Of a stretch of 64,000 nt of DNA, positions 5,083-14,645 are shown one piece after another. The notes beneath the pieces were generated by a model. That model was given only the letters and a program-made list of their open reading frames with translations. It was not told the DNA's origin and ran no database searches. The DNA is from Candidatus Pyrohabitans jungbluthii (GTDB lineage Archaea; Hydrothermarchaeota; Hydrothermarchaeia; Hydrothermarchaeales; BMS3B): contig MTMD02000015.1 in the NCBI GenBank assembly GCA_002010065.2, positions 1 through 64,000 on the forward strand. Direction: 5' to 3'. A program made the position numbers and the translations under genes. Position 1 is the stretch's first letter; every line of letters begins with the position of its first letter.

Positions 5083-6273
5083 ATGAAACTCAACCTTGAG
5101 GACATAATAAAAAGCCTGGTGGACGTGGAGAGCATAGAGCTGGAGAATGTGGAGCTGGATGTGGAGGAGCTTGTGATACAGGCAAAGCAGGCGATGCTGA
5201 TGCCAATTCTTCAGCAGCTTCAGCCGCAGGCGGCAGCTACGCTGGAGGCAAAGCCGGAGCAGAAGCTGGAGGCGCTACCTGAGATAACCTTTGAGAAGCC
5301 CGTAAAGGAGTACCGCGGGCAGGTGGAGGAAATAACCCTTGGAGCAACCCGCAGCGAGGGCGGTAGCAGGAGCAAGGTGATAAAAATAGGCGGGCAGCGC
5401 ACCCTCTACCACTTTGAAGGAGGGTGGGTTAATAAGCCCGTGGTGAGTTTTGATGTCTTCGACATTCCCCAGCCCCAGTTCCCCAAGGCTCTGCGCGAGG
5501 CGTGGGGCGACTTCTGGGATTCGCCCGCTGAATGGGCACGCGAGGCTGTGAAGCGTGGTGCAGACCTAGTTACCATTCACTTGGTCTCTACTGACCCGAA
5601 GGTTAAGGACACGCCCATCAGCGAGGCTGCAAAAACCGTGGAGGAGGTGCTTCAGGCAGTAGATGTGCCCATAGTAATAGGCGGCTCTGGCAACCCGGAG
5701 AAGGACCCGGCGCTCTTTGAGAAGGTGGCGGCGGTTGCTGAGAACGAGCGCTGCCTGCTTGCGAGCGCAAACTTGGACCTCGACCACAAGCGCATCGTGG
5801 ATGCGGCGGTTAAGTACAACCACAATGTGCTGAGCTGGGTCTCTCTGGACATAAACGATCAGAAGACACTGAACAAGCTCCTGCTGGAAGAGGGCTTGCC
5901 ACGCGAACGACTTGTGCAAGACCCCACAACGGCGGCGCTGGGCTATGGTTTGGAGTACACCTACACCATGATAGAGCGCATAAAGATCAACGCCCTCAAG
6001 GGCGAGAAGGAACTGGCTTTTCCTGTAAGCTGCGGCGTGACCAACGCATGGGCGGCGCGCGAGGCGTGGATGAACGTCGCGGAGTGGGGTCCCCGCGAGT
6101 ACCGTGGGCCCCTCTGGGAGACTGTCAATGCTCTAGCTGTTATGATCGCAGGAGCTGACATAATGATGATGCTCCACCCCAGTGCGGTGCAGGCGATTAA
6201 GGCGATAATCGACTCCATCTTCGGCGACTACCAAGGAGTGGAGATAAAGTATGAGAATTGGCTGAAGGTCTAG
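5083..6273 (+). CDS. cdhD: CODH/ACS complex, delta subunit (corrinoid protein small subunit)
   Basis: Partner of CdhE in the corrinoid iron-sulfur protein that passes the methyl group between tetrahydromethanopterin and CdhC. The 396 residues have an N-terminal region of about 90 residues found in archaeal CdhD, then a TIM-barrel domain (TLYHFEGGW ... VIGGSGNPEKDP ... NHNVLSWVSLD). The length is near that of archaeal homologues. It lies four bases after the ATPase gene, inside the cdh operon. Confidence 0.96.
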   Translation: MKLNLEDIIKSLVDVESIELENVELDVEELVIQAKQAMLMPILQQLQPQAAATLEAKPEQKLEALPEITFEKPVKEYRGQVEEITLGATRSEGGSRSKVIKIGGQRTLYHFEGGWVNKPVVSFDVFDIPQPQFPKALREAWGDFWDSPAEWAREAVKRGADLVTIHLVSTDPKVKDTPISEAAKTVEEVLQAVDVPIVIGGSGNPEKDPALFEKVAAVAENERCLLASANLDLDHKRIVDAAVKYNHNVLSWVSLDINDQKTLNKLLLEEGLPRERLVQDPTTAALGYGLEYTYTMIERIKINALKGEKELAFPVSCGVTNAWAAREAWMNVAEWGPREYRGPLWETVNALAVMIAGADIMMMLHPSAVQAIKAIIDSIFGDYQGVEIKYENWLKV

Positions 6274-6275
6274 GC

Positions 6276-6746
6276 ATGACAAAGGTATCGCCGCTAGAGG
6301 TTCACAAGCTCCTGCCACGCACCAACTGCAAGAAGTGCGGCAACGCGAGCTGCATGGCTTTCGCGGTAAAGCTGGTGAGTGGCAAGGCTTACTTGGATGA
6401 GTGCCCGACAATAAACGAGGCGCGCTACTTGCGCCAGAAGCTCGCGCTCAAGGAGCTTATCAGCAAGGTGCTCGCTGCGACGCCAACAAAGTTCGTGATT
6501 CACGAGGAGCGGTGCACAGGCTGCGGCAACTGCGTCGACGCCTGCCCAGCGAACGTTGCCGTTAGCTTAGAGGTGAGCGGTGGCAAGGGCAGCGCCAGCA
6601 AAGACGTGGTGCTCAAAATAGAAGACGGCGTGGTGAAGGTGGTGAACGTCAAGGCGTGCCGGCGCTTTGAAGAGGATGCCAGCGAGTCGCGACCATGCAG
6701 CGTGTGCGTGGACTCATGCCCCTACAAGGCGATTGAGTTTATGTGA
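6276..6746 (+). CDS. CdhE-N-terminus-like [4Fe-4S] domain fused to a ferredoxin
   Basis: A 156-residue iron-sulfur protein. Residues 1-45 copy the N-terminal FeS domain of CdhE (CKKCGNASC plus a further Cys, preceded by KVSPLEVHKLLP), while the rest is ferredoxin-like: CTGCGNCVDACP near residue 90 and CSVCVDSCP near the end, with a long insert between the two motifs. It starts two bases after the cdhD stop and precedes cdhE, so it is surely co-expressed with the corrinoid protein. A role in electron supply, such as reductive reactivation of Co(II) corrinoid, is an inference from context. I know no experimentally defined counterpart. Confidence 0.85.
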   Translation: MTKVSPLEVHKLLPRTNCKKCGNASCMAFAVKLVSGKAYLDECPTINEARYLRQKLALKELISKVLAATPTKFVIHEERCTGCGNCVDACPANVAVSLEVSGGKGSASKDVVLKIEDGVVKVVNVKACRRFEEDASESRPCSVCVDSCPYKAIEFM

Positions 6747-6768
6747 CAATGTTGAGAGGCGATGGGAA

Positions 6769-8175
6769 ATGGCTAAGGTATCACCCCTTGAGATATACAA
6801 GCACTTACCCGGACTGAACTGCAAGGAGTGTGGTGAAGACTCCTGTATGGCTTTTGCGAGTGCGCTCATAGAGCGCAAGAAGAAGTACGAGGACTGCGCA
6901 CCCCTTGTGAGGGAAGAAAAATACAAAAAGAAGCTGGATAAGCTTGTGGAGCTGGTGACGCCTCCCGTTAAGGAGGTGGTTATTGGCACTGGAGAGCGCG
7001 CCTGCGTCATAGGCGGCGAGGAGGTAATGTACCGCCACGAGCTTACCTTCTTCAATCCCACGGCGCTTTTCATAGACGTGAGCGACGACTTGCCAGCTGA
7101 CGAACTCGCTGAAAGAGTGGCGAAAATAAACAAGTTTGCTATAGAGCGCGTGGGGCAAAAGCTTCGCCTTGATGGTATAGCGGTGAGAGCAAAGAGCGGC
7201 GACCCCGCGAGGTTCGGCGAGGCAGTGGTCACCGCGGTAGAGAATTCGGACCTCCCATTAATGCTGTGCTCCTTTGATCCAGAGCATCTGGAGGTTGGTC
7301 TGGAAATAGCGATAGAGCGGAGACCCCTTATCTACGCGGCGACGAAGGAGAACGTAGACGCCGTGGCCGAGCTTGCTGTGAAACACAACGCACCTGTAGT
7401 AGCTTCCTCGCCTGGCGATATTCAGGGGCTGCTTGAGCTCGTGGCAAAGCTGCGCAGCAAGGGTGTGGAGGATATTGTTCTCGACGTGGGCACCTATCCG
7501 CTGGGCGCGAAGTTCGGCTCGAGCCTTGAGAATATGGTGATGCTGCGCAGGCTGGCGATTGAGAAGGGCGAGAAGCTGGCGGGCTACCCTATAATGGGCG
7601 TGCCCCTCGTCGCTTGGTTAAATGGCGACGAGCCTGCTAAAGCCGCGATGCAGGAGTGCATCATAGCGAGCACCCAGCTTCTGCGCTACGCAGACCTTCT
7701 GGTACTCCACTCCATGGACATGTTCTCCCTGCTTCCGCTGCTCACCCTGAGGCAGAACATATACACCGACCCGAGGGTGCCAATTCAGGTGGATGCGAAG
7801 CTCTATGAGATTGGCAAGCCCGACGAGAACTCGCCTGTGCTCCTGACCACGAACTTTGCCCTTACCTACTACACCGTCGCATCTGACATAGAGGCAGGGA
7901 AGGTGGACTGCTACCTGCTGGTGGTCAACACCGAAGGCTTGGCCGTTGAGCCCGCGATGGCAGGTGCAAAGCTCACGGGCAGCCTCGTGAAGGAGGCAAT
8001 CGAGGAGAGCGGCGTCGAGAACAAGGTGAAGCACCGCAAGCTGATAATCCCTGGCATGGCAGCGCGCATAAGCGGCGAGATTGAAGACCTCACTGGCTGG
8101 GAGGTCATCGTCGGCCCAATAGATTCCTCGCGCATACCTGCGTTTATAGAACAGAAGTGGAAGTCTGAGGCTTAG
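6769..8175 (+). CDS. cdhE: CODH/ACS complex, gamma subunit (corrinoid protein large subunit)
   Basis: Large subunit of the corrinoid iron-sulfur protein; carries a [4Fe-4S] cluster and the cobamide that shuttles methyl groups. The N-terminus (MAKVSPLEIYKHLPGLNC) begins the four-Cys cluster domain (CKECGEDSC...C), followed by a TIM barrel and a C-terminal corrinoid-binding Rossmann domain (about residues 310-468). At 468 residues it matches the family. I chose ATG 6769 because the homology to CdhE begins there; the frame is open further upstream but overlaps the preceding gene. Last gene of the operon. Confidence 0.97.
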   Translation: MAKVSPLEIYKHLPGLNCKECGEDSCMAFASALIERKKKYEDCAPLVREEKYKKKLDKLVELVTPPVKEVVIGTGERACVIGGEEVMYRHELTFFNPTALFIDVSDDLPADELAERVAKINKFAIERVGQKLRLDGIAVRAKSGDPARFGEAVVTAVENSDLPLMLCSFDPEHLEVGLEIAIERRPLIYAATKENVDAVAELAVKHNAPVVASSPGDIQGLLELVAKLRSKGVEDIVLDVGTYPLGAKFGSSLENMVMLRRLAIEKGEKLAGYPIMGVPLVAWLNGDEPAKAAMQECIIASTQLLRYADLLVLHSMDMFSLLPLLTLRQNIYTDPRVPIQVDAKLYEIGKPDENSPVLLTTNFALTYYTVASDIEAGKVDCYLLVVNTEGLAVEPAMAGAKLTGSLVKEAIEESGVENKVKHRKLIIPGMAARISGEIEDLTGWEVIVGPIDSSRIPAFIEQKWKSEA

Positions 8176-11161: not shown

Positions 11162-12344
11162 CGATCAGCGCCTCTTTTATCTCCTCGGCATGTTCAAAGC
11201 CGTAGGTTTCAACCACAACGTCGACTCTGACTTCGCCCAGAGGTATGCCTTTCTGCAGGCGGTCGTGGACTACAGAGATTACATTTGCTCTTTTTTCGGC
11301 GATTGTCTCAAGCATCGCCTTGAGCTCCCCGGGGAGGTCTTTAACCACCACGCTTAGGTGAAGGTACCTCCCCCGCTTTACCAGACCTTTCTCTATTACG
11401 CGGGAAATCAGGTTTAAATCCACGTTTCCCCCGCTTATGAGCACCGCGGTGGTCTTTCCTTTGCAGGGGACCTTGCCTGAGAGGCAGGCTGCCAGCGACG
11501 CAGCTCCAGCACCTTCAGCAACAAGCTTGGCGCGTTCAAGGAGGAGAAGCATCGCTTCGGCGATTTCCTCTTCGGTGACGGTAACCACATCATCCACGTA
11601 GCGCTGAATCAGCTGGAAGGTGAGCCTGCCTGGGCTTTTAATTGCTATTCCATCGGCGATGGTTGTGGAAAGCTTCACCGATGTGGGCTTTCCCATTGCT
11701 AAACTTGCCTTCATCGCCGCTACAGCTTCCGCCTGCACGCCGATTACTTTTACCTCTTCTTTAATACTCTTCGCAGCTATTGCTATGCCCGAAATCAAGC
11801 CGCCTCCGCCTACAGGTACAACAATCTGCTCCACCTCAGGCAGGTCTTCGAGGATTTCCAGTGCAATTGTGCCCTGACCCGCGATAATGTGAGGGTCGTC
11901 GAAGGCATGGATTAGGCAAAGCCCTTCTTCTTTAGCAAGCTTCTTCGCCTCTTTGAGGGCGTCTGAGAAGGTTTTTCCCTTAAGAATGACCCTCGCCCCA
12001 TACCCACGTGTAGCCAGAATTTTGGATATGCTGGTGTTTTCTGGCATAACAATGGTGCAGCGCGCGCGAAATAGAGAAGCAGCATAAGCCACGCCCTGAG
12101 CGTGGTTTCCGGTGGAGGCGGCGATAACCCCTCGCTTCAGCTGGGCTTGGTTCAAGGAGGCGATTTTATTGATAGCACCCCTCGACTTGAAAGAACCTGT
12201 CTTCTGGAGATTCTCTGCCTTGAGGTAAATCTCGCCCCCCGCAAGCATGGAGAAGGTCTGAGAGCGCTCAAGCGGGGTGCGGTGCACCTTGCTTTTAATA
12301 ACCTCAGCGGCACGCTTTATATCCTCAAGGGTCACCTCCCTCAT
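11139..12344 (-). CDS. ilvA: Threonine dehydratase (biosynthetic/catabolic) with ACT domain
   Basis: PLP enzyme deaminating threonine to 2-oxobutanoate, normally the first step to isoleucine. The PLP lysine is K53 in KTGSFKSRGA; the glycine-rich PLP phosphate loop is VPVGGGGLISG. Residues about 325-401 form an ACT domain, suggesting allosteric control by an amino acid. The 401-residue length fits archaeal enzymes. Start ATG at 12342-12344 follows GAGGTGA (minus strand: AGGGAGGTGACC region lies just inside; the ATG is chosen by homology). Divergent from truA with 45 bases between. Confidence 0.93.
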   Translation of the reverse strand: MREVTLEDIKRAAEVIKSKVHRTPLERSQTFSMLAGGEIYLKAENLQKTGSFKSRGAINKIASLNQAQLKRGVIAASTGNHAQGVAYAASLFRARCTIVMPENTSISKILATRGYGARVILKGKTFSDALKEAKKLAKEEGLCLIHAFDDPHIIAGQGTIALEILEDLPEVEQIVVPVGGGGLISGIAIAAKSIKEEVKVIGVQAEAVAAMKASLAMGKPTSVKLSTTIADGIAIKSPGRLTFQLIQRYVDDVVTVTEEEIAEAMLLLLERAKLVAEGAGAASLAACLSGKVPCKGKTTAVLISGGNVDLNLISRVIEKGLVKRGRYLHLSVVVKDLPGELKAMLETIAEKRANVISVVHDRLQKGIPLGEVRVDVVVETYGFEHAEEIKEALIAKGYLLL

Positions 12345-12389
12345 AGGATTTATTATCAGCCTGCGATAAATAAACTTAGTGATAAGATT

Positions 12390-13172
12390 ATGAGGTTTGC
12401 AGCGAAGGTATATTACGAGGGCACAGCTTTCTATGGCTCGCAGCGCCAACCAGCGAAACGCACAGTTGAGGGCGAGCTTCTCCGCGCTTTGAGCATCTTT
12501 GGCGAGGTGAGGAACTTCAAGAGCGCAGGAAGAACTGACCGCGGGGTTAGTGCGCTGGGCAACGTCTTTGCCTTTGATATGGATAGAAAGCTCGAGCCAA
12601 GGGCGATAAATGCACAGCTGAGCAGGGATATAAGGGTACTCGCAATAAGGGAGGTACCCGAAAGCTTTCATCCGCGCTACGACGCGCTCCACAGAACCTA
12701 CAAGTACTTTCTGTACGACGAGGGCTTTGACCTTGAGGCAATAAAGAAGGCGTGCAGTATTCTTGAGGGTGAGCACAGTTTCCACAACTTCACCCGCGCC
12801 AGGGAGAAAAACTACACGCGGAGGCTTCTCAGGGTTACCGCTGACAGAAAAGGCGAGGTTATTGTGCTAACCTTTAAGGGGGAGAGCTTTCTCTGGGAGA
12901 TGGTGCGCAGGCTGACGAGCGCGATAGCAATGGTGGGGAAGGGTGAGCTCAGCCTTGAGACACTTGAAGAGGCTTTACACCCTGAAGTGGAGCGGAAATT
13001 TTCAGCGGCGCCGCCTGAGTTTCTGGTGCTGTGGGAGGTTGCCTACAAGTTTGAGTTTGAGCATGAAGGCTACACCGTGAGGCAGCTTGTGGCGCAGCTC
13101 AGGGAAAAGTTCTCGTCGCTATACGCGCAGGCTGCGCTTGCAAAGGCTATGCACGAGGAGCTTAAATGCTGA
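12390..13172 (+). CDS. truA: tRNA pseudouridine synthase A
   Basis: Converts uridines 38-40 of the tRNA anticodon arm to pseudouridine. The catalytic Asp is D50 in SAGRTDRGVSALGNV. The 260 residues match archaeal TruA. ATG 12390 opens with the canonical MRFAAKVYYEGTAFYG strand; longer in-frame readings overlap the divergent dehydratase gene. The short 45-base divergent spacer with AAATAAAC implies a leaderless start. It overlaps the radical SAM gene tail-to-tail by 11 bases. Confidence 0.95.
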   Translation: MRFAAKVYYEGTAFYGSQRQPAKRTVEGELLRALSIFGEVRNFKSAGRTDRGVSALGNVFAFDMDRKLEPRAINAQLSRDIRVLAIREVPESFHPRYDALHRTYKYFLYDEGFDLEAIKKACSILEGEHSFHNFTRAREKNYTRRLLRVTADRKGEVIVLTFKGESFLWEMVRRLTSAIAMVGKGELSLETLEEALHPEVERKFSAAPPEFLVLWEVAYKFEFEHEGYTVRQLVAQLREKFSSLYAQAALAKAMHEELKC

Positions 13173-14427
13173 ACTTCTCCCTCAGCGCTGACCTGCGAAG
13201 GACATGCCAGGTGTCACCGCGAAGAATTACCCTGAAGGCATGCTCTATGACCTTCTTGTAAAAATCGCAGTAGTAGCTCTTGTTATACATGCTGCCGTCG
13301 GTGGAGTATATCTCCGCAGGACAGGGGGCACCGCAGATGTTTTTGAAGAGGCAGACATTGCACTCTTCTATCTCCTCAACTGCGCGGCTCACCACCTTTC
13401 TGAAACTCTCTGAATTTGAGATGTCCTCAATAGTATTGTTGAATATGTTCCCGCCTGCGAACTCCTGCATGCCTATGAACTCACCGCAGGGGTAACACTC
13501 CCCATTTGCGGTAACTGAAAAGAACCTCCTGCCGCCACCACAGGGTGAGATGTCGCACATGAGCACTCTTGCGCTCGGTGCGATGATGCCAAGCAGAAGG
13601 TTGGCGAAGTCGCCGATGACTATTCTTCTCCCCTGCTTTGTCAGCTCAATTGCGGTGTCTACGGCTTTAATAAAATATTCAGCCATCTCCCGTGGCTCTG
13701 GTCGTAAAGCAAGGGAACCTTTTTGAGTGCCTCTAACAGGATTCATCAGGCACAGTGAAACCTCCCTATCATTCAGGAACCTGACCATGTCGGCAAGCTG
13801 CTTCTGATTGTGCTTTGTTATTGTGGTGACCACATTCAAGCCTCTGTAGCCAGAGAACCACTCCAGTGCCTTGACAATCTTCCTGTAGTGCCCCTGTCCG
13901 CGCAGTGAATCGTTCGTCTTTTCATCCGGCGAATCCAGAGAGATGCCTATGTTCACCCTCTTTTCCTTTATAAACTCGGCATCTTCCTCGGTTAGTAGCA
14001 GACCATTCGTCTGAATACCGAAGTGAAGCTTGCCGTAATAATCCTCAATCACCCTGAAGATATTCTCCTTGTTCATCAGAGGCTCGCTTCCGTGAAACAC
14101 TATGGAGCCCTTCATCCCTTTCTCATCAAAAAATTCAATTGCCTTCTCAACGACGGTGCAGAGCTCAGCGTAGCTCATGTTTTTTCCGCGTGACTTTATA
14201 TTCTGGGGCAGGTAGCAGTATGGGCACGAGGCGTTGCATCTGTCGGTGGGATTTACATAGAGCAGAATTATATCTGTGCTGAACCTCAGAGCCTTCATCT
14301 CCCCAATCAGTTCCTCCCTCACGCTGGAGTACAGCTCTTCCAGCTTTTTCTGCTCCCCAATACCCCAGAAATTCGTCTCCGGATCAACCTTAAACTCTGT
14401 TTCGCCAATAGTGAGAGTCTGGAGCAT
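13162..14427 (-). CDS. Radical SAM/SPASM peptide-modifying enzyme
   Basis: A 421-residue radical SAM maturase. The AdoMet cluster motif is C64-x3-C68-x2-C71 (DRCNASCPYC), the barrel spans about 55-270, and the C-terminal SPASM region is cysteine-rich (CDISPCGG, GECYPCGEF, CNVCLFKNICGAPC, YYCDFY), enough for two auxiliary [4Fe-4S] clusters. Such enzymes crosslink or otherwise modify ribosomal peptides, and a 36-residue peptide gene sits 24 bases upstream on the same strand. A GGGTGG site before ATG 14425-14427 decides the start; GTG at 14434-14436 is the alternative. From memory it resembles enzyme/peptide pairs named CbpB/CbpA, which I could not check. Confidence 0.9.
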   Translation of the reverse strand: MLQTLTIGETEFKVDPETNFWGIGEQKKLEELYSSVREELIGEMKALRFSTDIILLYVNPTDRCNASCPYCYLPQNIKSRGKNMSYAELCTVVEKAIEFFDEKGMKGSIVFHGSEPLMNKENIFRVIEDYYGKLHFGIQTNGLLLTEEDAEFIKEKRVNIGISLDSPDEKTNDSLRGQGHYRKIVKALEWFSGYRGLNVVTTITKHNQKQLADMVRFLNDREVSLCLMNPVRGTQKGSLALRPEPREMAEYFIKAVDTAIELTKQGRRIVIGDFANLLLGIIAPSARVLMCDISPCGGGRRFFSVTANGECYPCGEFIGMQEFAGGNIFNNTIEDISNSESFRKVVSRAVEEIEECNVCLFKNICGAPCPAEIYSTDGSMYNKSYYCDFYKKVIEHAFRVILRGDTWHVLRRSALREKFSI

Positions 14428-14450
14428 CTTTACCACCCTAAAAAAGGAAA

Positions 14451-14561
14451 TTAGAAGGGCGAGTCCTCACTCTGCATCACATAGTGGGTGAGTCCTGCCC
14501 CCTTGTATTTACACTCCATCCTGTAGCTCATTTCTACTTTATGCGCATTTTTGTCTTCCAT
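14451..14561 (-). CDS. Candidate RiPP precursor peptide, 36 residues
   Basis: An unannotated-size ORF of 36 residues ending in TAA at 14451-14453. It has a strong ribosome site, GAGGTGG, five bases before the ATG, and is followed after 24 bases by the radical SAM/SPASM gene. The peptide has one cysteine (C17) within the core ECKYKGAGLTHYV (residues 16-28), a charged N-terminal half that could be a leader, and an acidic tail ending SPF. This layout (leader, small core with Cys, Gly, Thr, His, Tyr; maturase next door) is that of a ribosomally made, post-translationally modified peptide. The modification and role are unknown. Confidence 0.8.
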   Translation of the reverse strand: MEDKNAHKVEMSYRMECKYKGAGLTHYVMQSEDSPF

Positions 14562-14645
14562 ATCTGCCACCTCTCTGTATAATTTACACTATTTTTTATA
14601 AAATAAGGCATATTTAAGCTTTTTCTCAAATAATATTGATTAGAA

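Follow-up and report, generated by a model that had tools for sequence, protein, structure and literature searches.

The results presented here indicate that the cbpA and cbpB genes found in the window (the whole stretch of 64,000 nucleotides analysed from Candidatus Pyrohabitans jungbluthii, contig MTMD02000015.1) encode a predicted RiPP system, in which CbpB modifies CbpA within C-x(4-9)-G-L-[ST]-H-[YF] to yield a peptide that contributes to cobamide (B12) production in anaerobic archaea and bacteria; a probability of roughly 0.8 is assigned to this reading. It is based on the pairing of the two genes, the conserved core of the peptide, the riboswitch of the bacterial loci, the placement of the pair in cobamide gene clusters and the occurrence of CobQ in nearly all carriers, while the lack of a riboswitch at archaeal loci and of a cobamide gene beside cbpAB of the window counts against it. 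A ribosomal precursor and a dedicated modifying enzyme, the two elements by which a RiPP is recognised, are both encoded by the pair. According to the proposed mechanism, bacteria would express CbpA and CbpB when cobamide is low, CbpB would modify the C...GL[ST]H[YF] stretch, perhaps by forming a thioether from C17, and the modified CbpA would help cobamide production. We suggest, at somewhat less than even odds, that the pair gives rise to a cobalt ligand or cobalt chaperone derived from the peptide, or to a peptide cofactor no less new, which archaea and bacteria would both use in anaerobic B12 synthesis. Such a product would be the first RiPP to act within cobamide production, and the range of RiPPs would be widened beyond antibiotics and redox cofactors to the biosynthesis of a further cofactor. 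The cobamide link, absent from the initial annotation of this DNA, is the first handle on the function of CbpA and CbpB.

The cbpA gene comprises 36 codons of the minus strand, from the ATG at 14561-14559 to the TAA at 14453-14451, and its product is MEDKNAHKVEMSYRMECKYKGAGLTHYVMQSEDSPF; after an intergenic gap of 23 nt it is followed by cbpB, which starts with the ATG at 14427 and ends at 13162 (Table 1). The initial annotation had pointed to a 36-residue gene with a GAGGTGG site ahead of a SPASM gene, and both the coordinates and the site were borne out in the sequence; the closeness of the enzyme gene was correct as well, but not the distance of 24 bases. The 3' end of cbpB shares 11 bases with a convergent TruA-like gene (12102-13172; TruA called by eye), and the neighbours of the pair in the window (TruA, an EamA half-transporter and LivHM) gave no lead on function. 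No cobamide synthesis gene adjoins cbpAB in the window, and CobT and CobQ are located on other contigs of the genome. At 5083-8175, about 5 kb from cbpAB, genes resembling subunits of the CODH/ACS corrinoid protein, which are cobamide users, were recognised by eye. Just past the window (G000:C15:65599-67528) lie two adjoining distant radical SAM relatives, one of them with an in-frame TAG.

Table 1. Features of the cbpAB locus in the window and selected features of homologous or related loci.
Feature	Location	Strand	Basis or remark
cbpA, 36-residue precursor peptide	14451..14561	minus	TIGR04164 (E 2.5e-6); alignment of 37 homologues; co-occurrence
cbpB, 421-residue radical SAM/SPASM peptide maturase	13162..14427	minus	TIGR04163, Pfam, AlphaFold
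Ribosome-binding site of cbpA, GAGGTGG	14567..14573	minus	5-nt spacer before ATG; from sequence
Own ribosome-binding site of cbpB, GGGTGG	14433..14438	minus	from sequence
Possible archaeal TATA box of the cbpAB unit, CTTAAATA	14611..14618	minus	sequence only, inferred by eye
Gene order of a bacterial cob/cbi locus	L115		BtuB-like, CobD-CobQ, CobO, CbiA, CbiC, CbpAB, CbiX, CbiM, unassigned gene, ThiC-family protein, CbiQ
Ribbon-helix-helix protein gene (~300 residues)	L024:20-922	minus	
Ribbon-helix-helix protein gene (~300 residues)	L028:8906-9823	minus	
Ribbon-helix-helix protein gene (~300 residues)	L037:8841-9791	minus	
Ribbon-helix-helix protein gene, further copy	L225:5199-6122		
Ribbon-helix-helix protein gene, further copy	L219:6301-7158		
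Ribbon-helix-helix protein gene, further copy	L227:6068-7147		

The enzyme reached 521.8 bits over residues 3-408 with the NCBIfam model TIGR04163 ('peptide-modifying radical SAM enzyme CbpB'; cut-off 375), whereas the models of other maturase families scored far under their own cut-offs, and Pfam recognised the Radical_SAM and SPASM domains. The CxxxCxYC motif is formed by C64, C68 and C71 and the SPASM region contains C296, C314, C356, C359, C365, C369 and C387, all of which are invariant among 41 relatives. NCBIfam, Pfam and the gene order thus agree with the original description of the locus as a short peptide with a radical SAM/SPASM maturase. The solved structures nearest to the AlphaFold model (pLDDT 94.4) were CteB in the first place (5why/5wgg) and also anSME, TigE, ChlB, SkfB and SuiB, in agreement with the sequence search, which returned CteB and anSME. 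Judging by the model, the nearest folds are those of peptide or protein modifiers, which suggests the kind of enzyme and not which bond is formed. CteB is the thioether-forming SPASM maturase of SCIFF, whose maturation links Cys to Thr; CbpB, however, falls outside the SCIFF maturases, as the TIGR03974 score was 120.8 against a cut-off of 425 and SCIFF has six cysteines where CbpA has one. Moreover, just about 50 residues stand ahead of the radical SAM domain of CbpB, so no complete RRE domain is evident.

CbpA (TIGR04164, 'modified peptide precursor CbpA') was the only NCBIfam family that matched the peptide of the window, with an E-value of 2.5e-6 and 26.8 bits over residues 12-28 of 36, which is under the curated cut-off of 35 bits; the CbpA label is therefore a putative one, resting on motif and position and not on the curated score. 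The label CbpA/CbpB, which the initial annotation had put forward as a possibility, applies well above the cut-off to the enzyme and below it to the peptide; enzyme family, peptide motif and adjacency of the genes are shared with the named pair. The conserved motif of the family is R-x-x-C-(x4-9)-G-L-[ST]-H-[YF]. Among 37 aligned CbpA sequences from archaea and bacteria, C17, G23, L24 and H26 were invariant, R14 was present in at least 90%, position 25 was S or T and position 27 was Y or F; outside the alignment, one locus (L085) carries A at position 25. The initial annotation had singled out Cys17 as the likely core, and this residue is indeed invariant, but T25, H26 and Y27 are about equally conserved, with T25 replaced by S and Y27 by F. 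No constraint is visible on the tail following the motif, SPF being a frequent ending of archaeal peptides and lysines of bacterial ones. In L216 (G1087) CbpA terminates right after GGLTHFV, and the lack of the tail seen elsewhere suggests that it is dispensable. Codon comparison of cbpA from the window revealed 5 silent and 1 replacement change relative to L029, and 12 silent and 2 replacement changes relative to L021. Silent changes prevailed in most close cbpA pairs, the pairs L101/L102 and L103/L101 being uninformative because a length change put them out of register. The CbpA motif is evidently under purifying selection. The arrangement of a tiny ORF and an enzyme gene exceeds chance, since nearly all relatives have the same peptide ahead of the homologous enzyme and the codon changes are mostly silent.

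A Cys thioether of the sactipeptide or ranthipeptide type is plausible in CbpA, considering the single invariant Cys and the CteB-like fold of the predicted enzyme. The most likely modification would be a thioether from C17 to T25 or to the neighbouring H26 or Y27, leaving a ring that bears His. A His-Tyr link of the dynobactin type was not adopted, as H26 directly precedes Y27 in CbpA, whereas the linked residues of dynobactin are two apart.

CbpB was found in 11 of 101 genomes of relatives, and the peptide stood directly before it wherever upstream sequence exists; a scan of named genomes gave 60 CbpB loci, almost all of them preceded by the peptide. The archaeal carriers are Hydrothermarchaeota, Archaeoglobales, Methanoliparia, ANME-1, Methanomassiliicoccus and a Bathyarchaeota bin, and the bacterial ones are Desulfomonile, Syntrophaceae, Chloroflexi, Verrucomicrobia, Planctomycetota, Armatimonadetes and Omnitrophota. 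The pair is not limited to archaea or to methanogens, the groups named in the initial annotation, since it also occurs in Archaeoglobi, Hydrothermarchaeota and several bacterial phyla. When 80 genomes were searched with a CbpA profile, matches appeared in 34 of the 35 genomes with CbpB and in 1 of the 45 without it (Fisher P about 3e-20), the presence and absence calls being made on incomplete MAGs and the weak match in G1087 (E 0.02) being counted as true because of its correct position. The check proposed with the initial annotation, namely whether homologues of the peptide always sit before this enzyme, thus gave a positive answer. In the lone genome with CbpA and no CbpB, the peptide lies about 220 bases from the end of a 3.3-kb contig. 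In L033 and L049 the peptide before the enzyme is split between frames, probably by assembly errors, and in L051 and L046 inspection revealed it before cbpB. The most distant matches (L075-L077 and L080, 27-30% identity) were rejected as CbpB, being other radical SAM proteins without CbpA. As judged from these genomes, CbpA and CbpB are an ancient pair that nearly always occurs together, and the locus of the window is a further member of the named family. Complete chromosomes carrying cbpAB belong to what we take to be cultured Archaeoglobi, including A. fulgidus, which makes the hypothesis testable in the laboratory. In the literature searched, mostly that outside subscription journals, no paper on CbpA/CbpB function was found, and nothing linking a cobalamin riboswitch with a RiPP.

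The functional context comes primarily from the bacterial loci. Of the 47 testable bacterial loci, 41 (28 of 30 from one phylum and 13 further ones) have the cobalamin riboswitch (Rfam RF00174) upstream of cbpA and in the same orientation, and the distance from the end of the aptamer to cbpA amounts to 78-301 nt (median 117; 40 distances, L069 left out). Three of the remaining six (L115, L072 and L200) lie inside long cob/cbi operons headed by RF00174; no RF00174 was detected in L061 and L201, nor within the 20 kb scanned around the cbi cluster of L052. Apart from these operons and the further loci with named neighbours described below, the bacterial pair is accompanied by its riboswitch and nothing else. 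Together, the riboswitch and the operons provide the first functional context found for the CbpA/CbpB family. As the bacterial CbpB sequences form a single clade in the CbpB tree, the linkage may represent one old event that was kept and spread, and not 41 independent ones. RF00174 was absent from the 16 archaeal-type loci scanned, including L011, the window's own. The short ORF might also be a translated leader (attenuator) for cbpB and not a substrate, as its length and its position directly upstream of the enzyme gene would allow. Such a function is extremely improbable, given that C, H and Y/F are conserved across domains despite variable spacing and free tails, that silent changes outnumber replacements, that CbpB is close in fold to peptide modifiers and that regulation in bacteria is already supplied by the riboswitch. 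Most cobalamin riboswitches govern cobalt transport and cobalamin metabolism (PMC7689651), and a role of cbpAB in production or supply is therefore the natural reading. Judging by the name, the curators of TIGR04163 and TIGR04164 may already have noted the cobalamin link.

CobQ, taken here to mark the de novo synthesis of cobamides, is encoded in 96 of 103 CbpB-positive genomes tested. In one bacterial phylum, from which both classes were sampled, CobQ was present in 26 of 27 genomes with CbpB and in 15 of 30 without it (Fisher P 8e-5), a contrast that may partly reflect ancestry. No such contrast was visible among the archaeal relatives of the window, where CobQ is common with or without CbpB, which indicates that cbpAB is an accessory and not an essential core step of cobamide synthesis. 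CobT was rejected as a discriminator, as most genomes have it with or without CbpB. Riboswitch control would also be explained if the CbpA product replaced B12 or supported a B12-independent pathway under cobamide scarcity, as cobalamin riboswitches also control B12-independent isozymes, and in L208 cbpB lies near two genes called cobalamin-independent methionine synthase by Pfam. This role is nevertheless improbable, because nearly all carriers make cobamides and because several lineages have the pair inside cob/cbi operons.

With its strongly conserved core, single SPASM enzyme and no immunity or export genes, cbpAB resembles PqqA/PqqE and MftA/MftC, and by this analogy it has the look of a cofactor-type RiPP; the families are different, however (77.5 bits with the mycofactocin maturase model, cut-off 265), and no core motif is shared. 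Many SPASM maturases produce antibiotics, quorum peptides or other peptides of competition and signalling (PMC5682303, PMC8326336), and a conventional RiPP of this kind has to be considered. For CbpA it is very improbable, since the core is nearly invariant from archaea to bacteria, the loci inspected showed no gene for an exporter, a protease or immunity in the company of cbpAB, and in bacteria the pair is controlled by a cobalamin riboswitch.

The genes beside cbpAB, many of which were identified by eye, bear on the step of cobamide production that the product would serve. In four bacterial loci the gene immediately after cbpB encodes either a CbiX-type chelatase, as in L115 (Table 1) and in the cob clusters of L072 and L200, or the cobalt transporter CbiM, as in the cbi cluster of L052. 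In L116 the pair is accompanied by CbiB, CobD-CobQ, SUMT, CbiH and CbiG, and HemL (L047) or HemA (L057) lies directly downstream of cbpB. The product may bind Co(II) and supply or steer cobalt toward sirohydrochlorin, a role that we consider less likely than not. It is favoured by the four loci just mentioned, by the invariant Cys and His and by the low discrimination between metals of class II chelatases, which appear to act on sirohydrochlorin without metal specificity (PMC7689651). How early-insertion B12 makers separate cobalt from nickel and iron on this shared precursor is an open issue, and a small, predictedly modified peptide that is under riboswitch control and, in some bacteria, encoded beside a chelatase or a cobalt transporter offers a testable candidate for a missing part. 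Against the cobalt role stand CbiK, the early-insertion chelatase of Salmonella, which takes cobalt without a metallochaperone (PMC10206600), the uncertainty over which metal the adjacent CbiX-type chelatases use, their best NCBIfam match being the nickel chelatase CfbA, below its cut-off, and the archaeal CobT. If the cobalt role is right, it would be of the same kind as that of the metallochaperone CobW, which brings cobalt to B12 synthesis (PMC10206600); CobW, however, is a GTPase of the late-insertion pathway, whereas CbpA is a short peptide beside genes of the early-insertion type in some bacteria.

CobT is encoded directly after cbpB in ANME-1 and in Methanoliparia, which fall on separate branches of the CbpB tree, and a TrpD-like transferase and an alcohol dehydrogenase follow further on in some loci. 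This archaeal neighbour speaks for a role at the nucleotide loop rather than one in cobalt handling. The CbpA product could thus act in the assembly of the lower ligand and nucleotide loop, by supplying or modifying the base that CobT attaches or as a cofactor there. A ribbon-helix-helix gene divergent to cbpAB, one copy of which has a weak AIR-synthase-like match, fits this proposal, as AIR is the precursor of benzimidazole lower ligands. We consider it rather unlikely, because the direct neighbours in bacteria are CbiX and CbiM and not CobT, and because the same cobT cassette occurs without cbpAB in an ANME-1-like genome. In the latter, which has no CbpB match, CobT, the TrpD-like gene and the alcohol dehydrogenase are retained (L227:2912-6156), so that cbpAB has the appearance of an insert that the operon can do without. 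The ribbon-helix-helix gene, divergent to cbpAB in both ANME-1 and Methanoliparia, adjoins CobQ/CbiA in L225 and CobT in L227, and in the A. fulgidus-like L219 it lies beside an apparent precorrin-2 dehydrogenase and a siroheme decarboxylase-like gene, both recognised by eye. Its product may be a regulator of cobamide or tetrapyrrole genes in archaea. In addition, the bacterial genomes of L123 and L127 share an iron-sulfur gene pair directly upstream of cbpB, which by eye is heterodisulfide reductase-like.
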